A stretch of 37,174 nucleotides of DNA, from positions 1 through 37,174 of IMG/VR virus record IMGVR_UViG_3300028895_000051; one strand, written 5' to 3'. Below, piece after piece: positions 1,504-30,940 of the stretch. The notes under the pieces are model-generated. The model made no database searches. It had not been told where the DNA came from and was given only the letters and a program-made list of their open reading frames with translations. A program made the translations under genes and the position numbers. How positions within the stretch are numbered: position 1 is the first letter of the stretch; every line of letters starts with the position of its first letter. This DNA is from a virus.

Positions 1504-2660
1504 CATATTTCAGCTAATTTGGACAAATTAGTTATATTTTTATGGTCCGAAATATACGGTAATAATGTCTTATCAAATCTGCGAATTAATTCAAAGTTAA
1601 TATCACCCGAAAGCATTTGTCTAAATATATCATTTGGTGCCATTGATAAAATTATCTTAGTTATTTCCAAATCTTTGAATGGGGTCCAAGTTAACGTATT
1701 ACCCAAATGCCACCATTGATGATCATTTACGTTGACGTTTAAGATTTGCTTGTACAATTCTTCTCTTGTGGGATATTCTTTTTGTATTTTAGAAGAAATA
1801 TCTTTTACAAATAACTCAACATTCTTATTCTTTAAGAAATACTCGTAGTGATAGTCGTTGGGCGATATTTCTTCTAATACACTACGCCCGTGCCAGGCTG
1901 CCCACTGTGCTATTAATGCTGGTCCACGTAAAAAATACTCATCACCACACGATCCTGTCATGAATAATGTATCATCTACCCAATGATGCATTTGATTATA
2001 TCCCCAGAAACGTTGTTTTATATACTTAATATTTCCATAGGTAAATTTATCATATTCAAAGTGTTCATAATCTATAAACTCATGATCTATATTCTGATTT
2101 CGAAGTAGCGAATACAATAACATTGTATCTACACCACCTGTTACAAATACCTTAATCTTTTTATCTCTAAGGTATTCTACTTTCTTTAATAAAAGTTCTT
2201 CTATGGCATCAACTGCTTCTGTGAATGTACGTTGTTTAGTATGTAAGCTACCTAACACATCAAATTTTGTTGTTCGAAAACCATTTTCGATTGTTAAGTA
2301 TTCATCTGCATATACTGATTCTTGTGCTTTGAATTCAATATTATCAAAGTTAGTAGCTAATACTAATTCTTTATCCATCCATAGATTAAAACTTCTATAT
2401 AAATCGTGTGTAATTGTTACACCATTGGCATTGCTGATAATCATGCAGAAGTTGCCATGATATCGCGGCGTTGGATCTTTTAAAAATTCGGCCATTAAGT
2501 CAACGGTAGATAACTCGTCGCAATAACCCTTAAAGAAAAACCTATGATTATCTATTTTAAAGTCATGCCAACCATCATCGCACGAAAAACACAAAGCACC
2601 AGTTAGTTCATGATGATTCGGTAATCGTAAATCCTTATTATGTGATATAGAAAAGAACAT
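1500..2660 (-). CDS. Asparagine-synthase-like ATP-pyrophosphatase protein
   Basis: This 386-aa protein resembles class B asparagine synthetases. The C-terminal half carries a PP-loop, VFVTGGVDTMLLYSL (about 171-185), in place of the usual SGGxDS, and GSCGDEYFLRG (236-246) in place of G(D/E)xxDExFxGY. The N-terminal half looks like a remnant of the glutaminase domain. It starts MFFSIS, so the nucleophilic Cys2 is missing and glutamine hydrolysis is unlikely. It may use ammonia or act as another amide- or adenylate-forming enzyme on a metabolite or surface component. Its ATG overlaps the clpP stop (TAATG), so translation is probably coupled to clpP. Substrate unknown. Confidence 0.75.
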   Translation of the reverse strand: MFFSISHNKDLRLPNHHELTGALCFSCDDGWHDFKIDNHRFFFKGYCDELSTVDLMAEFLKDPTPRYHGNFCMIISNANGVTITHDLYRSFNLWMDKELVLATNFDNIEFKAQESVYADEYLTIENGFRTTKFDVLGSLHTKQRTFTEAVDAIEELLLKKVEYLRDKKIKVFVTGGVDTMLLYSLLRNQNIDHEFIDYEHFEYDKFTYGNIKYIKQRFWGYNQMHHWVDDTLFMTGSCGDEYFLRGPALIAQWAAWHGRSVLEEISPNDYHYEYFLKNKNVELFVKDISSKIQKEYPTREELYKQILNVNVNDHQWWHLGNTLTWTPFKDLEITKIILSMAPNDIFRQMLSGDINFELIRRFDKTLLPYISDHKNITNLSKLAEIC

Positions 2661-3280
2661 TAACGGCTAGTAACAACCTCATCAGCTAAACCAAACTCAA
2701 CAGCTTCTTCTGCACTCAAGAAAGTATCATGTTTCATAACTGATGCTAACTCGTCAAATGTTTTACCTTTTGTATTGTGCTGAACATACAATTCTGTTAG
2801 GCGATTGTTTAACCGTTTGGCTTCATCGAAATGTCTTTTGGCATCTTCAAACTCAAGCTCTTGTACATGAATAGATCCTTCTGTGCCAGGTGTACCTGAA
2901 CTTACTCTGTGGATCATTGTACGTGACTGCGGTAATACAAGACGTTTACCAGGTGTGCCTGCTTGCGCCAAGAATGAACCCATACTTGCTGCTTGACCGA
3001 TTACAATGGTACGAACATCACATTTAATAAACTGCATTGTATCGTAAATAGATAGTCCTGATGTTACAGATCCGCCCGGGCTATTAATGTAAAAAAGAAT
3101 TTCCTTGTCTGGATCTTCTGCTTCTAGGAATAGCATTTGTGCTACAATAAGACTAGCACTGTGTTGATCTACTCCTGAGTCAAGCATTACAATTCTGTCT
3201 TTAAGCAAACGTGAATAGATATCATAACTACGTTCGCCTTTGCTAGTGTTTTCGATTACCATTGGTACCAAATTTGGCAT
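2660..3280 (-). CDS. clpP: ATP-dependent Clp protease proteolytic subunit
   Basis: This 206-aa serine peptidase is close to bacterial ClpP in length and sequence. The catalytic triad is visible: Ser99 in GQAASMGS, His124 in MIHR and Asp185 in [11 protein letters not shown]. The N-terminus ([23 protein letters not shown]) matches the mature bacterial ClpP start, so there is essentially no propeptide. The product should form the tetradecameric chamber and dock to host ClpX or ClpA. No Clp ATPase is encoded in the window, but a ClpS adaptor is (13114-13413). A sigma70-like promoter lies upstream, so expression is probably early. Confidence 0.97.
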
Positions 3281-3367: not shown

Positions 3368-4609
3368 ATGCGAGCAAGAGAATTTTTAGCAGAGGACGAT
3401 TTATCAGTCCCTCAACTTAAGAAAGAAATTAGATCACAAATCACAGTAGTAAATGATTTTGATCTTTTAGATCGAATTTATCAAGTTTTATCACAGAAAA
3501 CAGTACGTGGTAAAATCGAAAAAGCATTCGAAAAGACAACAGATAATGCCAACGTTGGTGCCAATACTGATGCAATCATCAATGATATGATTCAGCAAAT
3601 TGCAAACCTTTCTGGTACAACACACCAAAAGCGTGAATTTGTCGAAGCATTAGAAAAAGGTACTGCTGTTAACGAAAAGAAACTATTAGACAAAACTGCA
3701 ACGTTTGATGAAATTTTCTCATCACAATTTGCACAAGACTTCTTCATATCTATTGCTAACTACGGACGTGGTTCTGCAATGAAAGGACCGGGCGAGTTTG
3801 CTCTTGCTATTATGTCACCAAAGATTTCACTAGCAACAAAAGGTGATATCCAAATCGGTAATAGAAATATCGAAGTTAAAGCTGCAATGAATAAGTCAGG
3901 TGGACGCATGGGCGAAACAACAGATGCAGCGAGCATTGACCAAATTCGTAATGCTATTTTATCAATGGGTATGAAACAAGCTAAAACTCCAGAAGAACAA
4001 CAAGGCATCAAAGACTTCTCAGAAATGAATAGTTGTGCATTAAGAAAAGCTGTTCAAACATTACATACTATCTTTGATGGTAGAAAGCCTGCTGTTAAAG
4101 CTGTTATTAAAGAAGTTGTTAAACAAACATTTGGTGCTCAAATGGGTGAAGCTGTTGGTAAAGCTGGCGCAAATGATCCATCGGGTGTAATGGCAGAACA
4201 AGAGTTCATGGCACAAAACTTTGATTGGTATCGTAAGAAAGGTCCAGGTTGGTCAGAAATCTTAGCAATATGGATGGGCGGTCGTAAAACATTCTCATTC
4301 TCAAGTGGTAAAGAATTAGTACAATTAAGAGCGTCAGGTTTCTTTAGTGGTGCTAGTGTTTCATTTATTCCAACTAAATCAAATGAAGTATTTGCTCAAA
4401 TTAACTTTGGTGCAGGCGGTGACGCTGCTGCATTAGGTGGTGGTGCTCCGGTATCAACTGCCGCTGCTAAGAAAGCAACTGCATCTAGAGCTGCACAAAA
4501 AGCAAAAGCAAAACCAGCTATAGCCAAAAAGAAAAACATGAAAGCTAGTAATCCTACCGGAGCTGGTGGCCGTGCTGCTAAAGGTGCAACAGGCCGAGCT
4601 AAACGTTAA
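3368..4609 (+). CDS. Putative internal head protein with PD-(D/E)XK nuclease signature
   Basis: The 413-aa product starts MRAREFLAEDD. This resembles the capsid-targeting peptide of T4 internal proteins (MKTYQEFIAEA), which the gp21 protease cuts after (I/L)xE. A PD-(D/E)XK-like arrangement follows: GPGEF with Glu143, KGDIQI with Asp160, then IEVKAA with Glu169 and Lys171, and GGR. The last 65 residues are Ala/Lys/Gly-rich and strongly basic, like a histone H1 tail. Together these suggest a DNA-binding nuclease packaged in the head and injected with the genome, but that role is inferred. Start context is weak (AGG 13 bases upstream). The 3' end overlaps the convergent gene by 4 bp. Confidence 0.7.
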   Translation: MRAREFLAEDDLSVPQLKKEIRSQITVVNDFDLLDRIYQVLSQKTVRGKIEKAFEKTTDNANVGANTDAIINDMIQQIANLSGTTHQKREFVEALEKGTAVNEKKLLDKTATFDEIFSSQFAQDFFISIANYGRGSAMKGPGEFALAIMSPKISLATKGDIQIGNRNIEVKAAMNKSGGRMGETTDAASIDQIRNAILSMGMKQAKTPEEQQGIKDFSEMNSCALRKAVQTLHTIFDGRKPAVKAVIKEVVKQTFGAQMGEAVGKAGANDPSGVMAEQEFMAQNFDWYRKKGPGWSEILAIWMGGRKTFSFSSGKELVQLRASGFFSGASVSFIPTKSNEVFAQINFGAGGDAAALGGGAPVSTAAAKKATASRAAQKAKAKPAIAKKKNMKASNPTGAGGRAAKGATGRAKR

Positions 4610-5043
4610 ACGTAATGAGGAATATACGTTCCAAAATTAATACCATAATTTTCGAACTTTGATTTCCAACTATAAAATGCCTTGCCGTGATCCGCAAGAT
4701 ATTTTTTTAACTTGCGTTTAGGCTCTACAATGTCCCATTGCCATTGATGTACCATTTCGTGTGCTAATACTGCTACCATAAATTGTTCACATGGTAACTT
4801 ATCAAGTACTTCGATATATGTCTTGTGTACACCATTACGCTTTAACGGATATGCACAACCCCAGGCCTGCCTAATGCCGCGCACATTTAAATGACACTTT
4901 TCTAATTCATTATCAAATAAAACATGATTAAGAATATCATATGTTTTATTAAGTTTATGAATTGTGGGCCTATAGTTTAGTTGCCGATATTCGATTTTGG
5001 ATGGAATCGGCTGCTCCATCATTGAAATTAATTTGGACTCCAT
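4606..5043 (-). CDS. SprT-like zinc metalloprotease
   Basis: The 145-aa protein has the zincin motif VLAHEMVHQWQ, with His95, Glu96 and His99 as metal ligands and catalytic base. A third likely ligand, His119, lies in ADHGKAFYSWK. This order and spacing fit the SprT / SprT-like family, whose eukaryotic member Spartan cleaves DNA-protein crosslinks. The zinc ribbon often found at the C-terminus of SprT proteins is absent. It may clear proteins from DNA or cleave a host protein. The start has GAGG upstream and a consensus promoter, so expression is probably early. Confidence 0.85.
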   Translation of the reverse strand: MESKLISMMEQPIPSKIEYRQLNYRPTIHKLNKTYDILNHVLFDNELEKCHLNVRGIRQAWGCAYPLKRNGVHKTYIEVLDKLPCEQFMVAVLAHEMVHQWQWDIVEPKRKLKKYLADHGKAFYSWKSKFENYGINFGTYIPHYV

Positions 5044-5459: not shown

Positions 5460-5484
5460 AAAAAGGGCGTAAAGCCCTTTTTTT
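5460..5484. terminator. Bidirectional rho-independent terminator
   Basis: A stem AAAAAGGGC / GCCCTTTTT (5460-5468 with 5474-5482) has a GTAAA loop and T-runs on both strands. It separates the convergent genes ending at 5457 and 5483. Confidence 0.9.
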
Positions 5485-6037
5485 ATAATAACAATTCTTT
5501 AACACTAGACATTGTGTCTTGTGATAAATTCTCCAAATCTTTAAAATCCTTTGCTAACTTTCCATTATAGTCAACTAATACATATTGAATATTTGGATTA
5601 GATTTAATAATAGTGGCAATATTATTTCTATACGTTTTAGCTTTATGCTGTACAATCTTATCTTCGTTTTCATCTACAGGAGATAGATCCCATCCATACA
5701 TTAATACAACCTCATAATTTTGAGATGTTAAATTTAATGTAACGATATCTTCTTTTAAATCAATTAACGGATCCTTAAAATCGCCTTCGTATAACTTAAC
5801 ACCCTGTGGTCTACCTAATTCAATATAACTAGACTTCGGAAGATATAAATTAAAAATAGCATGAAACGCTCTAGATATTAATTCTTTTGCTTTTTTATTA
5901 TCGTGACAAATAACATTATCTGTGCGATAATCATTCCATGTAGAATATGGACCCCATATCGGAGCAATGTTTTTTAATTGGTTTGAATCTATTTGTCCAC
6001 TCTTTAAGTTTTCACTTAATGCCCATGCAACTTGCAT
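5483..6037 (-). CDS. Conserved phage hypothetical protein, 184 aa
   Basis: Last gene of the minus-strand biosynthetic operon, separated from the amidinotransferase gene by one base (TAAAATG). It is soluble, with a conserved-looking block NIAPIWGPYSTW followed by a region rich in Asn, Asp, His and Cys (DNVICHDNKKA) around residues 24-47. The rest is alternating alpha/beta. I recall similar proteins in other marine T4-like phages but no function. The Trp/Pro-rich block and its position suggest an enzyme or partner acting with the upstream enzymes, which is inference. No signal peptide or membrane segment. Confidence 0.85.
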   Translation of the reverse strand: MQVAWALSENLKSGQIDSNQLKNIAPIWGPYSTWNDYRTDNVICHDNKKAKELISRAFHAIFNLYLPKSSYIELGRPQGVKLYEGDFKDPLIDLKEDIVTLNLTSQNYEVVLMYGWDLSPVDENEDKIVQHKAKTYRNNIATIIKSNPNIQYVLVDYNGKLAKDFKDLENLSQDTMSSVKELLL

Positions 6038-6038
6038 T

Positions 6039-6953
6039 TTATGCCTCTCTATGTAAATCTAATGTAACACAATGGAACCCACCACCTAATGTTCTACTAT
6101 GTCTTAACCTATGAGGAATAACTGTAATTCCTTTTTTCTCTAAGATTTTAATTAATTCTTTTTGAGCAGCATCAACTATTATTGTGGTAGGATTAATACT
6201 TAATGTATTTATCGCAATCCACTTACTTGCATAAGGATAATCAACGAAATCTTGTGGTACAACATCATCAACCCAAATGATTTCTCTATCTTGTAATGTC
6301 TTTGGTAAATTATCTTCTGTAACCCTATTACCGTTAACAAGTATAAGATCTTCGTTAACAGGACTAATTGTACTATCAATATGTACGCCTGCATAAAAGT
6401 TTACAAGTTCAATATCAATCTGCGAAAAGTTATCACATAACCATTCATATGCTTCTTTATTACCTGACGCACTTTCTAACATAATCCATTGATCATCAAA
6501 TCTAGAAATATTTGCAGCATCTAATACCATGCCGGCATCACGCGGCATTGTTATTGTGGGGGCAGATTCCGGTATTCTATTTAATGCTTGTATTTCTAAA
6601 TCTCTACAAGGATACATCATTGCAGGGTCAACAACTACTTCTCCTGCTATTAACAATCTATCACGTGGGCAATAGTTATACATTCCTTTAATAGCAGGAA
6701 AGTCAATATCTGCCGGACGATATACTGTAACACCTTCTTTAATTAGTATTTCAGATAAACCCCATAAATCTTCGTTTGCCTCATCTATTACCTGTTGCGA
6801 TACTGGTCCTGATGGCGGAGGAGTTTCTTTCCACGGAGCATCCTTCATTTCTTGTGCAAAGACAGGATCATCACTTGGCCAATTTGCGTTTGTAGCTGTA
6901 CCAACTACAACAGATCTAAGTTGATCCCATTCGTTATGTGAATTTACTATCAT
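6039..6953 (-). CDS. Amidinotransferase-family protein (GATM-like)
   Basis: The 304-aa product has the pentein-fold amidinotransferase layout. It begins with NEWDQLRSVVVGTATN, then has MYNYCPRD (91-98), HIDSTISPVNEDLILVN (His191, Asp193) and GGGFHCVTLDL with nucleophile Cys295. The family moves an amidino group from arginine to an amine (glycine or inosamine amidinotransferase) or hydrolyses guanidines. The acceptor here is unknown. Arginine as donor, via a covalent Cys-amidino intermediate, is family knowledge. The start overlaps the stop of the radical SAM gene by 4 bp (ATGA), so they are probably co-translated. Confidence 0.85.
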   Translation of the reverse strand: MIVNSHNEWDQLRSVVVGTATNANWPSDDPVFAQEMKDAPWKETPPPSGPVSQQVIDEANEDLWGLSEILIKEGVTVYRPADIDFPAIKGMYNYCPRDRLLIAGEVVVDPAMMYPCRDLEIQALNRIPESAPTITMPRDAGMVLDAANISRFDDQWIMLESASGNKEAYEWLCDNFSQIDIELVNFYAGVHIDSTISPVNEDLILVNGNRVTEDNLPKTLQDREIIWVDDVVPQDFVDYPYASKWIAINTLSINPTTIIVDAAQKELIKILEKKGITVIPHRLRHSRTLGGGFHCVTLDLHREA

Positions 6954-8980
6954 AGTTGTTCTAATAATTTTTCCATTTCCCTGACATAATAATCATTATC
7001 GATTTCTTTTCTATGCACAGGTGTATGATATGTTAAGTTTAATACCGGAAATTCTTGATTCTCATTTGAGTTTAGAGAATACCATATTTCAAATGGATTT
7101 GGTATTTCAAATACCAGCTCGCTTTCGTTTATCCAAAAGCCATTGTAAAACTCTTCTTTTGTGTCGTTAACAAAAAACTGTCCTAATCCATTTGCAAGTA
7201 AATTCCAACCATTTAATGTTAACTTATTAACTCGAATATATGCATCTTTCAATATCTCACCAGACTCAGATACTTCTGTATGAGCTGATGTTTTACCAAT
7301 CATTTTAAATGATAGCTTATTTAAATCAGCAGGATTAACTTTAGCTGGTAATGTTATTTCTTTGTTGTTAAACATAACTATTAACTTTAAATTACTATTG
7401 TTATCAATGACAGTTGTATCTATATCTAACTCCCATTCATCCTGTTTTATTTCTTGTTTTAATATTTCTAAAAACTCATCAAAATTATTATAGTAGTATT
7501 CTGCTTTGCTATCTTGTACTGGCAATGTTTTATAAAACTCTTTTGCTTTTTCAAATTCGCTTTTTATTTTCTTGTGTTCATGTTCATAAGCGTCATGGAA
7601 TGTAGGTGGAATGTTTAACATCGACGAAAGTTTTAACATCAATAATGTTCTATAAAAACGTTCTTTACCTGTTAGCTCTGGATTTAATTCTGTCCACCAA
7701 TGTGATGGTGCCACCATTTGGATTTTATTTTTATCAAATTGTTTTGATACTGGTGCTAACTTTTTAACTGTGAATGTATTTGACGTAAATGACCCTAGTA
7801 ATCCTTCTCTAGTATATGGTCCAAGACGAGCAAATAATTTAGCGGTCTCGATTAAATCTTCCCATCTCTCACTCCAATGCCCATGCACAAACGTTAATAC
7901 AAAATGAATGCCAGCTCTTTTCATTTGTTCTAATTCGTAATATATGCTTTCTGAATCAATCTGTTTATTCATTGCTTTTAATACATGATCGCTTCCAGAC
8001 TCAATACCAATGTTTAAACTTTGACAACCAGATGCGGTAATCTTATCAAAAAATTCAGGTGTGTTTAATCCGCCCGGACGTCTACATACCCAACCGCTGG
8101 CAGCCCATCTAACTGGGGTTTCGGCTGTTTTATTATATTCTGCAATTTCATTGACCCAACTCTTTACTTCTTTCATATTGCCATTGACAGTATAATCCAA
8201 CATCAATATTTCTTTCTTATATTTTTCTGTCAGCGATATAAGTTGTTTAGCAACATCTTGCCATCCTCTGTAACTATAGTCCAGCGAGGAATACACGCAA
8301 AAGTCACATTTTTTAATACAACCTTTACTAGTTTTGACAGGAATTTGAACTGGTTGTCCTTTAACTTGTCCGGTATAATAATCTAAGTCTAAATCATCGT
8401 AATCAACCAAAACTTGATTTTCGTAAGATGCAATTTGATATTCACTATCTATTTTTTTATCATTTAGGAAGTTTAAAATAGAAAATTCTTCATCGCCGAT
8501 TACATAATCATCAGCTATATTTAAATTAATAGCTAAGTTGCCAACATTAGTAGCAAGTGGATGATTATAATGTTTTCTAATAACGTTAGGCATTCTATAA
8601 CGTATGCCTTCTCCACCTATTAGGATTTTCATCTCTGGTTTATATTTTTTTACAGCTTCTGCTAACATTAAAGCAGTTAGTGTAGAGTGATCGTAATACA
8701 TATTAATATGCAAATAATCTGTTAATTTAACTACTCGTTGTGCTTCGTCGTTGATGAACTTTTTAATATGGTCCATTGGATATTCATCAACACATGATAG
8801 CATCATATCATCAATGGATAAGCTATGTTGGTCTGAATACTTGCATAGCTCCACACTTCCGTCGATGATAAACGAACTTACATTTTGCATATTTAGAAAG
8901 CCTTTAATGTTTCCTAAATGCCAAGGCAATCGTTCCAATGGAGTATATGGTGTTGAATATACTACAATGTCATACTTCAT
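6950..8980 (-). CDS. Radical SAM protein, B12-binding-like N-terminus
   Basis: The 676-aa protein has the [4Fe-4S]-binding CxxxCxxC motif in KGCIKKCDFCVY (Cys221, Cys225, Cys228). A Rossmann-like domain precedes it (residues 1-200, with PPS-like segments such as LIGGEGIRY), as in B12-binding radical SAM enzymes, although no DxHxxG cobalamin motif is seen. Downstream, GCQSLNIGIESGSD (about 320-333) matches the usual SAM-binding GIES element. The C-terminal 200 residues are an unrecognised extension. Neighbours are a 2OG oxygenase (4-bp overlap) and an amidinotransferase (4-bp overlap), pointing to a shared modification pathway. Substrate unknown. Confidence 0.9.
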   Translation of the reverse strand: MKYDIVVYSTPYTPLERLPWHLGNIKGFLNMQNVSSFIIDGSVELCKYSDQHSLSIDDMMLSCVDEYPMDHIKKFINDEAQRVVKLTDYLHINMYYDHSTLTALMLAEAVKKYKPEMKILIGGEGIRYRMPNVIRKHYNHPLATNVGNLAINLNIADDYVIGDEEFSILNFLNDKKIDSEYQIASYENQVLVDYDDLDLDYYTGQVKGQPVQIPVKTSKGCIKKCDFCVYSSLDYSYRGWQDVAKQLISLTEKYKKEILMLDYTVNGNMKEVKSWVNEIAEYNKTAETPVRWAASGWVCRRPGGLNTPEFFDKITASGCQSLNIGIESGSDHVLKAMNKQIDSESIYYELEQMKRAGIHFVLTFVHGHWSERWEDLIETAKLFARLGPYTREGLLGSFTSNTFTVKKLAPVSKQFDKNKIQMVAPSHWWTELNPELTGKERFYRTLLMLKLSSMLNIPPTFHDAYEHEHKKIKSEFEKAKEFYKTLPVQDSKAEYYYNNFDEFLEILKQEIKQDEWELDIDTTVIDNNSNLKLIVMFNNKEITLPAKVNPADLNKLSFKMIGKTSAHTEVSESGEILKDAYIRVNKLTLNGWNLLANGLGQFFVNDTKEEFYNGFWINESELVFEIPNPFEIWYSLNSNENQEFPVLNLTYHTPVHRKEIDNDYYVREMEKLLEQL

Positions 8981-9516
8981 AAATCTAATAGACCTGTTAT
9001 TTGAAGTGTATAACGATCATCAAATCCTATGTTTGCTGCTGTATGAGGTACATCACTTGTCCATATAGCATAGTCGCCTGCTTTCCAATCTACAATAGCT
9101 TTGTCATCCATATCTAAATAGTGGCCATGTTTCCAATCTTCTAACATGATAAGAGCACGAACAACTGTTTTTTCTTTACAGTCATACATTTCTTTAAACT
9201 TAACGAAACGATCAACATGCCTAGGAAGAATGACACCTGATGTCATTTTATAAAAAGACCAACTAAAGTGTTCAAACGGAAATACTTGTTTAAGTTGATC
9301 AATTCCCATCCAAGGTAGCTCAGGGTTTTTCATATCATACATTTCACCTGTGAAATGCTCATGAGTAAAACCTAAGTCTCTCCAATACTGTGCATCTCTA
9401 GGATCATTGTATGGTTCACGAACATAGTTTAACATTCTATGTTCATTATTCTTCCAAGGCAAATTAATATGCCCTGTTTTCCAAAAGTATTGATTATTCT
9501 GGTCTGGTGTTGCCAT
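8977..9516 (-). CDS. 2-oxoglutarate/Fe(II)-dependent oxygenase-like protein
   Basis: The 179-aa protein contains the double-stranded beta-helix metal triad: LPRHVDRF (His100, Asp102) and VPHTA (His158), with a likely 2OG-binding Arg168 in DDRYTLQITG. Between them, RALIMLEDWKHGHYL and WKAGDYAIW fit the family's core strands. Such enzymes hydroxylate or otherwise oxidise proteins, nucleic acids or small molecules and are common in marine T4-like phages. The start lies inside the 3' end of the dehydrogenase gene (23-bp overlap) without a clear Shine-Dalgarno sequence, so translation is probably coupled. Substrate not predictable. Confidence 0.82.
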   Translation of the reverse strand: MATPDQNNQYFWKTGHINLPWKNNEHRMLNYVREPYNDPRDAQYWRDLGFTHEHFTGEMYDMKNPELPWMGIDQLKQVFPFEHFSWSFYKMTSGVILPRHVDRFVKFKEMYDCKEKTVVRALIMLEDWKHGHYLDMDDKAIVDWKAGDYAIWTSDVPHTAANIGFDDRYTLQITGLLDL

Positions 9517-10753
9517 AATGTATTACTTTATAGTTTGGTGTTGACTTTGGCATCTTACGCCAAGGATCAACAATGACGCTAAATTCTGGAATATCAGCGT
9601 AAAAATGGTCTGTCAAGTCATCATTACTAAATTCTGTTACATAACCGTATGTAACCTTTTTGTTATGGGCTAATAACACAACAGATGGCTCATCTATAGT
9701 ATCAACAACATCGGTTGGATCATCACTGAGTGGATCTAAGTAAACAACATGGAATCCTTGTGCTTCGACATAATGTCCAACAAGTGTAGAATAAGAACCA
9801 ATGCAGTATTCTACGTCTGGCTTGTATGCCTTGCCATGAATAACAACCGTTTTCATATCATTATCTAATGCTTCTTTAACTAAGAACTTAGCTAGGTTTT
9901 CTGCTTGTATTTCTCGAGCTCGCATAATAGTATCAAACATATCATAACCGATTTCATATTCTTCTGCTAACCATCGTAAAGCAATATTATCACGTGGGTG
10001 ACATGCACCACTATCGCCCATGCCTGCTGTCATATACTTAGGAGATTGTAAACGTATTGTTGAGTTAGCAAGTGCGTCAGTTACATTGTCTACATTCATA
10101 TTACCAATTTTCATTGCAAAGTCCTGGATCATATTAACAATGCCTACCTTAGCTGAAATGTATGTGTTGTAGAAGATTTTAATTGCTTCTGCTTCTTCCC
10201 ATGTGCCACCTACATAGCGAGGATCATTATCCATTATGCCTTTATAAATTTCAATAAGTTCTTCGCGTCTTGGATCGTTGCCATCTTTACTACCAATGAT
10301 AACCATTTCTGGATTACGCATATCCCATTTGACTGAGCCCATAGCAATAAGATAAGGATTATAAATTAATGTATGATTATCAAGTAAGTTATCAAACTCA
10401 CGTCTTGTTGTACCCGGTAATACTGTGCTAATTAATACAATATTTTTTTCTGTTGTGGCATGTTTATTAATTTCACGCAAAGAGTCTTTAACAATATTAT
10501 AACCAAAATCTTTAGGAGTTAAATGGCAACTTGGTACCCCGCCACCGTATTCTTCTTCGTGTGGGGTAGGTACTGCGATAAAGATCCAATCACTATTATC
10601 AACGGTTTCTTTAACAGTGGGATATACTGTTACGGTTTCGGATTCTCTTGGGCTTACATCATAACCGCATGTTGGGTATTTCTCTGCAAATACTTCTGCA
10701 CAATCTAGTCCTAGTTTACCTAGTCCAATAAACCCAATTCTTAGGTCACTCAT
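9494..10753 (-). CDS. UDP-glucose/GDP-mannose dehydrogenase family protein
   Basis: The 419-aa protein starts with an NAD-binding GFIGLGKLG (7-15). It then has VPTPHEEE (61-68), STVLPGTT (109-116), the central-domain EAIKIFYNT (Lys192, Asn196) and the catalytic cysteine in GDSGACHPRD (Cys251). This is the layout of enzymes that oxidise the C6 hydroxyl of a nucleotide sugar to a uronate, using two NAD+. Which sugar cannot be read from sequence. AGGAG lies about 11 bases before the ATG. It is the first gene of a five-gene operon and diverges from a glycosyltransferase-like gene, which supports a role in building or altering a glycan. Confidence 0.88.
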   Translation of the reverse strand: MSDLRIGFIGLGKLGLDCAEVFAEKYPTCGYDVSPRESETVTVYPTVKETVDNSDWIFIAVPTPHEEEYGGGVPSCHLTPKDFGYNIVKDSLREINKHATTEKNIVLISTVLPGTTRREFDNLLDNHTLIYNPYLIAMGSVKWDMRNPEMVIIGSKDGNDPRREELIEIYKGIMDNDPRYVGGTWEEAEAIKIFYNTYISAKVGIVNMIQDFAMKIGNMNVDNVTDALANSTIRLQSPKYMTAGMGDSGACHPRDNIALRWLAEEYEIGYDMFDTIMRAREIQAENLAKFLVKEALDNDMKTVVIHGKAYKPDVEYCIGSYSTLVGHYVEAQGFHVVYLDPLSDDPTDVVDTIDEPSVVLLAHNKKVTYGYVTEFSNDDLTDHFYADIPEFSVIVDPWRKMPKSTPNYKVIHYGNTRPE

Positions 10754-10794
10754 TATAAATTTTTCTCCTATAATTTTTTTATTAAATATTGCTT

Positions 10795-11982
10795 ATGTTC
10801 TCAGTTAACAATTTCTATGATTATTTAAGGTACAAGTACAGCGACCCTGAAAAAAATATCATCTACAAATTTAGAGAAAACGGTAGTAGAGATTTATTTT
10901 CATTACATCCATTCAATGATAATCATAACCCGCTAACAGCAAAATTTTTAGGTGGCATATATCTATTTGATCAAGAACCCTTTTGTATTAACAATTACCA
11001 CTTTGATAAAAATGCTGAAACATTATATCCTATGATGTTTGCTGAACTAGAATATAATATAAACTTAGTTTCGGCATTTTTAAGTAAAGCACATACTCCA
11101 ATTATTTGTCATAGCGAAAAAAATAGTAACGATATAAACAAACTTAAAGAAATTGGATTCCTTGATGTACATTACTGGTATCACGGTTTAATAGCTCGTG
11201 ATTGGTTCCGACACTGGAAACATTATAACATAAACTATAACCCTGGTGCAAGTCGATTTGGCTTATATGTTAGAGATACGTCTGGTTCAAGAGAATACAG
11301 AAAAGACTTGCTAAAAGAATTACATGATGTTGATATTTATTGTCCATTTATCAACGGAGAATTATTTAACAGTACAGAAAGTGCCAGAATAACATGGGAT
11401 GATACTAATAAATTTGATATACATATTGTTGCTGAAACATTATTTAATACAGAAAAAGTTCACCTTACTGAAAAAATATTCAAACCTATTGTAATGAAGC
11501 AACCATTTATTTTATTTGCTGGGCCACATAGTTTACGTTATCTTAAAAAATATGGATTCAAAACGTTTGAACATATATGGAATGAAGAATACGATGATAT
11601 ATTAGACGCACAAGAACGTTTAAACCAAGCAACTAAAATGATTAAACGTATTAACAAATTACCTAAGGACAAATACAATAAAATATTAGAACAATGCAAG
11701 GAAATTGTTGAATATAATCATAACCACTTCTTTAGTCAAAAGTTTGAAGATATAATGTTAGGTGAATTACATTCAAACTTTGATATTGCATTACAACATC
11801 AAGAAGAAAACTTTTTACAAGATCCAGGCGGAATATGGTTTAGAATGATTGAACATTATACCAACTTAGGACATTCTGATTTATTTAGAAAGGATATTAT
11901 TGCACAAACTAAGTTATTAATTATCGACAATCATCCTGATCCTGTATCGTTTCTTAAGCAATATCCTTGGGATGGTTCTTAG
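10795..11982 (+). CDS. Putative glycosyltransferase, 395 aa
   Basis: The C-terminal half holds a block typical of fucosyltransferase- and exostosin-like glycosyltransferases: VAETLFN, then VHLTEKIFKPIVMKQPFIL (about 222-240) and AGPHSLRYLKKYGFKTF. The glutamate and lysine in TEK would contact the nucleotide sugar in that family. The N-terminal half is a less distinctive Rossmann-like domain. The ATG at 10795 is preferred over a TTG six bases earlier, although no Shine-Dalgarno sequence is visible for either. It lies head to head with the nucleotide-sugar dehydrogenase and overlaps the convergent gene by 29 bp. Donor and acceptor are unknown. Confidence 0.7.
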   Translation: MFSVNNFYDYLRYKYSDPEKNIIYKFRENGSRDLFSLHPFNDNHNPLTAKFLGGIYLFDQEPFCINNYHFDKNAETLYPMMFAELEYNINLVSAFLSKAHTPIICHSEKNSNDINKLKEIGFLDVHYWYHGLIARDWFRHWKHYNINYNPGASRFGLYVRDTSGSREYRKDLLKELHDVDIYCPFINGELFNSTESARITWDDTNKFDIHIVAETLFNTEKVHLTEKIFKPIVMKQPFILFAGPHSLRYLKKYGFKTFEHIWNEEYDDILDAQERLNQATKMIKRINKLPKDKYNKILEQCKEIVEYNHNHFFSQKFEDIMLGELHSNFDIALQHQEENFLQDPGGIWFRMIEHYTNLGHSDLFRKDIIAQTKLLIIDNHPDPVSFLKQYPWDGS

Positions 11983-12352: not shown

Positions 12353-13117
12353 ATGAACTTTGATTTAATTAGTGATTTACATTTAGAACCAAACGAACCA
12401 TTTGATTGGTCTGGCAAAGCAACAAGCCTTTATTGCATTATTGCTGGTAATATTAGTTATGATCGTAACACATTATACAAAACTTTAGAACACTTGAGCA
12501 ACCATTACGAAATGATTTTATTTGTAGATGGTATGCTCGAACATAAAGAATGGCAACATTTATCAGTAGAAGATAGTTATTTAGATCTTCGTGCTAACTT
12601 AGATAAATTCGAAAACATTTTCTTTATGCATGATAATATCATTATAATCAATGGTATTGGATTCTTAGGTGCAAATGGTTGGTGTACTTACGATTTCGAT
12701 CCTAATCTACAAGCCGATACTATGGAGTTTCTATTACAAACAGAAAAAATGTCATCCATTGATATCGGAAATGTTTTAGCAATGGCAAATTCAGATACAC
12801 ACTATTTTAAAAACAGTATATCTGAATGTCAAACTATACCAGACATAAGTGAAATTATAATGATTACAAATAGTGTTCCGTTACCTGATCTTATTAGTCA
12901 CGACATTAATCTTTCCACTGAATATATGATTAATAGAATTGGTAACAATGGAATTACATCATGTTTAGACGAAGACCACGAAGGTAAAATTTCAACTTGG
13001 TGTTTTGGAAAGTATCCTGGTGATATGGATATGTTAATACATGGTGTTAGATATTTAAATAACACCGCATGTTCTAAACCAAAAGAAATTTACCACCCTA
13101 AAAGGATTACAATTTAA
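12353..13117 (+). CDS. Degenerate calcineurin-like metallophosphoesterase
   Basis: The 254-aa protein follows the metallophosphoesterase fold but has lost most metal ligands. Motif I is intact (SDLHLE, Asp8, His10). The GDxxD aspartate is Asn33 (AGNISYD), GNHE is replaced by DGMLEH, the expected His of motif IV is Asn (MITNSVP), and GHTH is replaced by FGKYPG. The family's C-terminal pattern is still recognisable (IHGVRYLNN...KPKE). It is therefore probably a pseudoenzyme or has a changed activity. No Shine-Dalgarno sequence is visible, and a TATAAT-like hexamer lies about 20 bp upstream. It overlaps clpS by 4 bp at its 3' end. Confidence 0.78.
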   Translation: MNFDLISDLHLEPNEPFDWSGKATSLYCIIAGNISYDRNTLYKTLEHLSNHYEMILFVDGMLEHKEWQHLSVEDSYLDLRANLDKFENIFFMHDNIIIINGIGFLGANGWCTYDFDPNLQADTMEFLLQTEKMSSIDIGNVLAMANSDTHYFKNSISECQTIPDISEIIMITNSVPLPDLISHDINLSTEYMINRIGNNGITSCLDEDHEGKISTWCFGKYPGDMDMLIHGVRYLNNTACSKPKEIYHPKRITI

Positions 13118-13413
13118 GATTCTGCTTCAATTCTAATCTGCAACGGATATCCATTTGATCTTGCAGATACTGTAACTTCAATACCTTTCTGTTCTGCCAT
13201 TTCGTATGGTAAAGTCGCTACTACAGCCGATCCTTTATGATGAATATCAGTTGTTATTTTTTCAGCCGTTGGTTGATTGTAATTAAAGATATCAACTAAA
13301 CTTTCAATAACGAACTGCATACTAGTAGTATCATCATTGACGTATATAACTTTATACATAGGCGGCTCTTGCACTTCTATTCTTGTTTTTGTTTGGACTG
13401 CTGTATCTGGCAT
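13114..13413 (-). CDS. clpS: ClpS adaptor protein
   Basis: The 99-aa protein is ClpS-like along its length: PPMYKVIYVNDDTTSMQFVI, then IFNYNQPTAEKI, DIHHKGSAVV and AEQKGIEV. The N-degron pocket residues match those of E. coli ClpS (Asn34, Asp35, His66) at Asn26, Asp27 and His58. ClpS delivers N-end-rule substrates to ClpA-ClpP and blocks ssrA-tagged substrates. GAGG lies seven bases upstream of the start. The gene lies immediately downstream of hsp20, and the phage also encodes ClpP, so phage control of host proteolysis is likely. Confidence 0.95.
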   Translation of the reverse strand: MPDTAVQTKTRIEVQEPPMYKVIYVNDDTTSMQFVIESLVDIFNYNQPTAEKITTDIHHKGSAVVATLPYEMAEQKGIEVTVSARSNGYPLQIRIEAES

Positions 13414-13491: not shown

Positions 13492-13932
13492 CTATGATAC
13501 GTGGTTAATAGCAATAGTTTTAGGTTTCATTTCTTCTGGAACTTCACGCTGAAGACTCACAGTTAAAATGCCGTCTTTCATATCTGCTCCGGTAACTTTA
13601 ACGTGATCCGCTAAGTTAAATGAACGTGTGAAACGACGTGAACTGATACCTTGATGATGATACTTAGGTGTATCTTCATTTTCTTCAGTTACTTTTTCGC
13701 CCGAGATTTCTAATGCACCATCATGTTCAGTGATATTGATATCATCTTTCCCGAAGCCAGCTACTGCTACTTCGATTACATAGTTATCGTCATCAACTTG
13801 AATTAAGTTGAATGGAGGATAGTTCTGTGATGATCCTGAATCAATTTGGTTTAACATGCGATCCATTAAGCGATCGATACCGACTGTGTTGCGGTAGAAA
13901 GGGTTGAGGTCAAGGGATGTTAATCTAGTCAT
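13492..13932 (-). CDS. Small heat-shock protein, IbpA/Hsp20 family
   Basis: The 146-aa protein is colinear with E. coli IbpA: an N-terminal LDLNPFYRNTVGIDRLMDR, then an alpha-crystallin domain (about residues 38-135) with YVIEVAVAGFGKDDINI, ALEISGEK, the YHHQGISSRRFTRSFNLAD segment and GILTVSL, and a final KPKTIAIN tail carrying an IxI-like motif. It acts as an ATP-independent holdase that keeps unfolding proteins soluble. The start has AAGGAG ten bases upstream. Expression is through a sigma70 promoter and possibly a late box, with an unusually long structured leader. Confidence 0.96.
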   Translation of the reverse strand: MTRLTSLDLNPFYRNTVGIDRLMDRMLNQIDSGSSQNYPPFNLIQVDDDNYVIEVAVAGFGKDDINITEHDGALEISGEKVTEENEDTPKYHHQGISSRRFTRSFNLADHVKVTGADMKDGILTVSLQREVPEEMKPKTIAINHVS

Positions 13933-14391: not shown

Positions 14392-14399
14392 TATTTATA
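14392..14399 (-). promoter_or_regulatory. T4-type late promoter of rpsU
   Basis: Exact TATAAATA on the minus strand. It contains the TAA stop codon of the upstream 647-aa gene (14395-14397). Confidence 0.78.
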
Positions 14400-26411: not shown

Positions 26412-26419
26412 TATTTATA
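26412..26419 (-). promoter_or_regulatory. T4-type late promoter of the tail fibre gene
   Basis: Exact TATAAATA on the minus strand, 28 bp before the ATG at 26384. It includes the TAA stop codon of the upstream gene. Confidence 0.8.
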
Positions 26420-30557: not shown

Positions 30558-30878
30558 TTAAGCTACTGCTAAAGTACCAACTGTTACTGTAGCTGCTGAG
30601 AAGTCAACTGCATCGACTGTGCCGATAGCTTGTACTGCTGCTTCTAATTCAGCTTGACCAATTTCGCCTTCAACGCCGAATGCCATGTTAGCACCTGGAA
30701 CGCCTGCTGCGATAATTGTTGAAATTGATTGGATACCTGAGTATAATGCTTGTAATGCACCTTCTGGACCTGTTGAGCCTGAAGCATCTACAGATACTGT
30801 GAAGAAAGTGATATCTTTACCTACTTGTTCAAAGTCACCGTATACGGTAACTGGATTGACTTTTGTTACGCCAGCCAT
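30558..30878 (-). CDS. Small Ala/Gly/Val-rich late virion protein, 106 aa
   Basis: The product (MAGVTKVNPVTVYGDFEQVG...) is rich in Ala, Gly, Val, Ser and Thr and lacks Cys, His, Trp and Arg, the composition of an abundant structural protein. A region around residues 35-60 (GPEGALQALYSGIQSISTII) may be helical and the rest beta-rich. It has its own exact TATAAATA late promoter, an AGGAG ribosome site and a strong terminator, so it is a monocistronic, probably highly expressed gene. I recall similar proteins in marine T4-like phages; a head or tail decoration role is inferred. Confidence 0.85.
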   Translation of the reverse strand: MAGVTKVNPVTVYGDFEQVGKDITFFTVSVDASGSTGPEGALQALYSGIQSISTIIAAGVPGANMAFGVEGEIGQAELEAAVQAIGTVDAVDFSAATVTVGTLAVA

Positions 30879-30932: not shown

Positions 30933-30940
30933 TATTTATA
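30933..30940 (-). promoter_or_regulatory. T4-type late promoter
   Basis: Exact TATAAATA on the minus strand, 55 bp before the ATG at 30878. The leader of about 45 nt contains AGGAG seven to eight bases before the start. Confidence 0.85.

Follow-up and report, generated by a model that had tools for sequence, protein, structure and literature searches.

The five genes that lie head to tail on the minus strand between positions 5,483 and 10,753 belong to a large freshwater phage and form an operon that is real and functionally coherent. We hold, with moderate confidence, that it contributes to a pathway by which the phage produces the nucleotide form of a guanidino-amino sugar and passes that sugar on to a glycan, most probably one carried by proteins of the virion tail-fibre region. 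Other phages have the same set of enzymes in another gene arrangement, and for this reason the pathway seems genuine, though as yet undescribed; in the literature searched, we found no description of the cassette, of its two architectures or of its altered dehydrogenase. Antibiotics, streptomycin among them, contain guanidino sugars, but to our knowledge neither phage virions nor phage-made glycans have been found to do so. Confirmation of the pathway would mean that uncultured freshwater phages in their hundreds have in common a means of adding positive charge to a surface, which would bear on receptor binding, superinfection or the evasion of host defences.

The operon and its enzymes

The window, by which we mean the whole stretch of DNA analysed, is a single viral record of 37,174 bases with T4-like gene content (a class I ribonucleotide reductase, a DNA ligase, a DnaB-like helicase, a primase and a tail spike), in which no tRNA genes were found. 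The earlier note had described five minus-strand reading frames joined by overlaps of 23, 4 and 4 bp and then a 1-bp gap, with a glycosyltransferase diverging from them, and all of this agrees with what we find. Namely, each of the five starts with ATG, and the divergent frame has a GT-B fold, its assignment coming from structure only. The features, with position and strand, are:

10789..11982, plus strand: divergent GT-B fold glycosyltransferase, 397 aa, with an invariant TEK motif (AlphaFold2 model)
10765..10769, minus strand: AGGAG ribosome-binding site of the first gene (dehydrogenase), read from the sequence
9494..10753, minus strand: NDP-sugar dehydrogenase (UGD) of the 'CHPRDN' subfamily, 419 aa, operon gene 1 (PF00984/PF03721, TIGR03026)
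10340..10360, minus strand: NPYLIAM motif, aa 132-138 of the dehydrogenase (NPEFLxE in textbook enzymes; both Glu replaced)
9989..10003, minus strand: CHPRD motif, aa 251-255 of the dehydrogenase (nucleophilic Cys, invariant His, Asp)
8977..9516, minus strand: 2OG-Fe(II) oxygenase-like protein, 179 aa (invariant H100xD102, H158, R168)
6950..8980, minus strand: radical SAM enzyme, 676 aa, with B12-radical-SAM-like architecture (PF04055, 5.7e-14)
8297..8320, minus strand: CxxxCxxC iron-sulfur motif of the radical SAM enzyme, aa 221-228, CIKKCDFC, read from the sequence
6039..6953, minus strand: predicted L-arginine:amine amidinotransferase (AMT), 304 aa (PDB 1bwd, E 1.7e-53)
5483..6037, minus strand: U184, 184 aa, Maf/MptE-like (DUF115) fold, putative glycosyltransferase domain (AlphaFold2 model)

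The amidinotransferase has no Pfam match, and it aligns over its full length with the inosamine-phosphate amidinotransferase StrB1, its closest solved relative. In particular, D98, D145, H191, D193 and C295 align with the catalytic residues of StrB1 and are invariant in relatives, and the protein carries both the Asp/His/Asp/Cys set and the GGGFHC motif of the pentein amidinotransferases. Its predicted activity is amidino transfer, with arginine as the donor and an amine as the acceptor. Second, divergent AMT paralogues lie a few kilobases from the first in three related loci (L009, 14164-15168; L028, 13742-14737; L034, 9974-11107), and are 22-26% identical to the AMT of the window.

The 179-residue protein is assigned as a 2OG oxygenase because H100-x-D102, H158 and R168, that is, the HxD...H iron triad and the downstream Arg, are invariant across its relatives and because its homologue in Synechococcus phage S-SCSM2R is annotated as 2OG-Fe(II). 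It has no Pfam match; its match to AtsK is weak (E 0.39), as is that of a fused homologue to PF05118 (E 0.0072). The next protein belongs to the radical SAM superfamily by its PF04055 match and its CIKKCDFC motif. Its best NCBIfam match is the PhpK-like P-methyltransferase model TIGR04479 (2.2e-19), which at 69 bits stays below the cut-off of 600, and the DxHxxG B12 motif is absent, so that it does not class as a PhpK-type cobalamin-dependent radical SAM methyltransferase. A related phage radical SAM protein has PF02310.

The last gene product had been labelled an unknown protein, a label that the AlphaFold2 model of U184 (alignment of 13 relatives, mean pLDDT 93) now makes hard to keep, since the model has a recognisable Maf/MptE-like fold. 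Its top VIA-align match is the Magnetospirillum Maf glycosyltransferase 5mu5 (Z 10.9, 168 of 184 residues, rmsd 4.1), and further matches are SteA (9.2), the M. jannaschii MptE-type kinase 8sd5 (8.4) and the sialyltransferase ST6GALNAC2 (6.5). The Maf match came from VIA-align, Foldseek returning no significant PDB match for U184; there was no Pfam match, and PF01973 was not over cut-off in 14 phages. Going by the modelled fold, U184 may thus act as a glycosyltransferase. The divergent glycosyltransferase was modelled at pLDDT 79, and its GT-B fold is clear, with the families GT10 and GT63 tied at Z 10-11. It has no Pfam match, and PF00852 was not over cut-off in the phage genomes. TEK (227-229), R171 and the Glu of DQEP (63) are invariant in its family, and we take them to resemble GT10. 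Profile searches of the PDB with the 2OG protein, the glycosyltransferase and U184 gave nothing significant.

As for the surroundings, a scan of the window for the late-promoter motif TATAAATA found 3 sites (26412-26419, 30933-30940 and 14392-14399) against 7.5 expected, that is, fewer than by chance, with none at the operon. Two of the sites are placed like T4 late promoters, one some 27 bp ahead of the tail spike gene and the other some 54 bp ahead of the ORF at 30558-30878. Around the cassette there are also four likely proteostasis genes, ClpP-like, SprT-like, ClpS-like and Hsp20-like (2660-3280, 4606-5043, 13114-13413 and 13492-13932), of which SprT has a profile match and the others are named from sequence; ClpS and Hsp20 are kept beside the cassette in many relatives.

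Two gene orders of the cassette

The relatives of AMT and of the dehydrogenase are encoded on viral contigs, which in many cases are large. For AMT, 148 were found and 80 kept, with 56-63% identity, and removal of near-duplicates (AMT 90% identity) left a set of 83 distinct viral loci. The possibility that the genes occur separately in related phages, with no conserved order, does not hold for the core: dehydrogenase and AMT share a strand in 83/83 loci, and the order UGD-2OG-AMT is found in 81/83. The divergent glycosyltransferase is present in 64/83, and the modal overlaps are those of the window (-23 bp in 33 loci and -4 bp in 47). The complete set of five genes was found only in the window and in L002, a 5.7-kb contig whose sequence is identical, and the radical SAM family of the window is represented in 0/83 loci. 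At the window's joint, L062 has a radical SAM gene of another kind; L140 has one at the other joint, which in L030 holds a glycosyltransferase. The closest relative, a 213-kb contig (L200/L276; AMT 70%, 2OG 65% identity), reads GT / UGD - 2OG - AMT - fibre-like - U184. Because this relative has no radical SAM gene at its 2OG/AMT joint, the gene most likely entered the window's lineage there, at the ATGA junction; the window, for its part, is without the fibre-like gene. The earlier idea of one functional unit with a conserved gene order is supported. The radical SAM gene falls outside the conserved core of this lineage, although in other loci it is again found among these partners.

Since the 83 loci belong to related phages, their order partly reflects common descent. 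What is more, distances between cassette genes correlate no better with one another than with those of neighbouring phage genes, so that co-inheritance of the cassette as a unit is not proven. The strongest evidence that these enzymes act together is their recurrence in different gene orders. Namely, a search with the 2OG profile retrieved 13 distinct loci in which 2OG and then a glycosyltransferase come after AMT, so that 2OG and AMT have changed places relative to the window, the whole reading radical SAM - DegT sugar aminotransferase - AMT - 2OG - glycosyltransferase. DegT (PF01041, 194-212 aa) lies shortly or directly upstream of AMT in 11/13, the glycosyltransferase comes after 2OG in 12/13, the two are fused in one ORF in 3/13 (e.g. 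L236, 5947-7767), and the dehydrogenase is at most 5.2 kb away in 9/13. A radical SAM protein related to that of the window occurs in 7/13 (25-29% identity over about 180-316 residues, E to 9e-20). It was only through these loci that this family became visible, a search of viral contigs with the single radical SAM protein having returned the identical fragment L002 only. A chance cluster of genes was considered and set aside on account of the conserved order together with the second architecture. Single-ORF fusions of 2OG and glycosyltransferase were also seen in L242 (5989-7764), L245 (5989-7773) and L251 (5974-7815).

By including a DegT aminotransferase, the second architecture supplies the amination step missing from the window, where no such gene was found. 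A compact DegT is encoded elsewhere in 9/15 records bearing the first architecture, the closest relative included, and a PF01041 enzyme is present elsewhere in 10/10 cassette-bearing records of at least 200 kb. Among 50,697 INPHARED phage records, a comparison unmatched for phage type, the compact DegT appears in 7, two of which are S-SCSM2R and the 642-kb LR756502, the latter having a CHPRDN dehydrogenase as well. These proteins match PF01041 (to 5e-18) and keep the PLP-binding catalytic Lys in 33/33 cases. In 4 loci the DegT encoded in trans adjoins an epimerase that is GalE-like by its sequence. Flavobacterium phage immuto has its compact DegT in an annotated glycosylation cluster with glycosyltransferases, an epimerase and a pilin-glycosylation protein. 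That said, the DegT outside the window could serve another sugar. We note in passing the small size of these proteins, about 196 aa in L267 (4438-5028) and its relatives, far short of the 360 residues usual in the family.

The proposed pathway and its first step

Of the roles that had been suggested for the operon, one in sugar or glycan modification fits best. In such a pathway, the dehydrogenase would oxidise the 6-position of an NDP-hexose sugar, an amine would be installed by a DegT aminotransferase from another part of these genomes, and AMT would load this amine with the amidino group of arginine. Tailoring of the sugar would fall to the 2OG oxygenase and the radical SAM enzyme, and the GT-B glycosyltransferase, perhaps with the Maf-like U184, would attach it. 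This order of steps, like the product and the target, is what we infer.

The chemistry of the first step deserves particular care. The dehydrogenase matches PF00984 and PF03721 in Pfam and TIGR03026 in TIGRFAM, and it retains the catalytic residues C251, K192, N196 and D255, whose equivalents (Cys260, Lys204, Asn208 and Asp264 in S. pyogenes numbering) are kept in 156-158 of 158 relatives aligned with E. coli Ugd. CHPRD is invariant in 156/156 readable members of the subfamily, the His always following the Cys. At other positions, the subfamily departs from the rule. The equivalent of Glu141 is Tyr in 145 of the 158 relatives, Phe in 7, Gln in 4 and otherwise Ala or Leu, and is Glu in none; that of Glu145 is Met, Gln or Leu (Glu 0/158), and that of Tyr10 is Lys or His (Tyr 0/158). 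The window's own enzyme has Tyr134 at the Glu141 site and Lys13 at the Tyr10 site. In a survey of 229 nucleotide-sugar dehydrogenases, Glu141 was invariant and Tyr10, the residue catalysing thioester hydrolysis, was 98% conserved (PMC4794789), and the human E161Q mutant, at the Glu141 position, crystallised with a thiohemiacetal intermediate (PMC3184952). Because the equivalents of Glu141 and Tyr10 are replaced throughout this subfamily, the uronate formation that had been taken from family knowledge is not to be assumed and is better regarded as doubtful. More generally, the chemistry of this subfamily, in phages and bacteria alike, cannot be taken from its annotation. A C6 aldehyde that is then transaminated would tie UGD, DegT and AMT into a single line of chemistry, and a dehydrogenase that really halted there would lead to a 6-guanidino-6-deoxy sugar.

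One can go a step further and propose, speculatively and as something we consider unlikely, that the CHPRDN subfamily represents a novel type of nucleotide-sugar dehydrogenase without thioester hydrolysis. Its members would release a C6 aldehyde (or pass the acyl group to an amine), and phages would combine them with a compact DegT of 200 aa and AMT to place 6-guanidino sugars on tail fibres. We know of no virus with a positively charged glycan decoration of 6-guanidino sugars.

A more conservative alternative differs from our best explanation only in this first step, and holds that the dehydrogenase makes an ordinary uronate while the AMT product is attached separately, the operon thus serving two sugar modifications. 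Full oxidation to the uronate is possible, as the dehydrogenase keeps its Cys, and the other three catalytic residues are likewise intact. In addition, the same subfamily adjoins a NadE-like gene in other phages, outside the cassette. The NadE family acts on carboxylates, and such a neighbour would suit a carboxylate and therefore counts against the C6 aldehyde. Set against this is the replacement of Glu141, Glu145 and Tyr10 in 158/158 relatives, and we judge an ordinary uronate to have perhaps a minor but real chance of being correct.

Several other members of the subfamily may be recorded here. A second class of CHPRDN loci (L135-L191, e.g. L147, 6121-8230) has the NadE-like gene immediately before the dehydrogenase, with QueE-like and exonuclease genes close by and no AMT or 2OG; the 344-kb contig 3300019776_000324 holds both locus classes. 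Actinobacterial members (L113-L116, about 8000-9180) have CPQF, in which the change made in the human E161Q trap mutant occurs naturally, and three of them adjoin NRPS-like genes.

The probable target of the sugar and known systems

Among the 60 loci with enough flank, a fibre-like gene comes after AMT in 35, directly or past one 245-aa gene, and U184 follows in 17. The protein is fibre-like by sequence pattern only, with a C-terminal GVNTxxPxxALxVWDEE... motif and no library match. This coupling and the Maf-like fold of U184 point to glycosylation of a virion protein, and both weigh against the main rival on the target, in which the same sugar pathway serves the host envelope (LPS or capsule), infected cells being re-decorated to block superinfection. 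Pelagimyophage glycosyltransferases and UDP-glucose dehydrogenase have been interpreted in just this way (PMC7029224). Related dehydrogenases also occur in clusters of several glycosyltransferases with carbamoyl- and methyltransferases, and the TATAAATA scan showed no late promoter directly upstream of the operon, a point that also counts against our own reading, as does the absence of the fibre-like gene from the window. On the whole, we think an envelope target unlikely.

Modification of DNA bases, which the earlier note had also entertained, would mean that hydroxymethylated bases in the phage genome receive a modified sugar from the divergent glycosyltransferase. Its top structural match is indeed T4 beta-glucosyltransferase (Z 11.0), but the H. 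pylori alpha1,3-fucosyltransferase is tied with it (Z 10.3), and such matches show the common GT-B fold only. Moreover, a PF00303 gene (thymidylate synthase/dCMP hydroxymethylase) is present in only 3 of 14 cassette-bearing records, and its absence from the other 11, some of which may be incomplete, disfavours this option, to which we give very little credence. Equally improbable, in our opinion, is a role in auxiliary metabolism, with AMT making guanidinoacetate or freeing ornithine from arginine for polyamines and its neighbours being unrelated. It is true that AMT is homologous to arginine:glycine amidinotransferase and that phage AMTs are often so annotated, but that match (E 2e-24) is far weaker than the one to StrB1 (E 1.7e-53), and AMT is tightly and recurrently linked to UGD, 2OG, DegT and glycosyltransferase genes in two gene orders.

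Several known systems come close to the cassette or to its parts. StrB1 has whole-length homology and all catalytic residues in common with AMT, which is found here in a phage operon with no inosamine pathway in sight. UDP-glucose 6-dehydrogenase and other NDP-sugar dehydrogenases share the fold, the NAD motif and the Cys/Lys/Asn/Asp active site, whereas here Glu141 has become Tyr, Phe or Gln, Glu145 Met and Tyr10 Lys, with a His next to the Cys. The model of U184 aligns with the Maf flagellin glycosyltransferases and MptE (DUF115), yet U184 amounts to a 184-aa core. Maf enzymes O-glycosylate flagellin (PMC11339370). An amidinotransferase in radical SAM clusters has already been reported for Campylobacter phages: in CP220 and CPt10, AMT lies within a swappable cluster with five radical SAM genes and with sugar-transfer genes nearby (PMC2853527). 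That AMT is only 23-26% identical, however, and neither a CHPRDN dehydrogenase nor a cassette-type 2OG was detected beside it. Finally, the marine Synechococcus phage S-SCSM2R has its dehydrogenase (27% identical) elsewhere in the genome and a radical SAM protein annotated to the SkfB/NifB/PqqE family, but it carries DegT, radical SAM, glycosyltransferase, 2OG, AMT and glycosyltransferase genes in one run, in which 2OG is directly followed by AMT.
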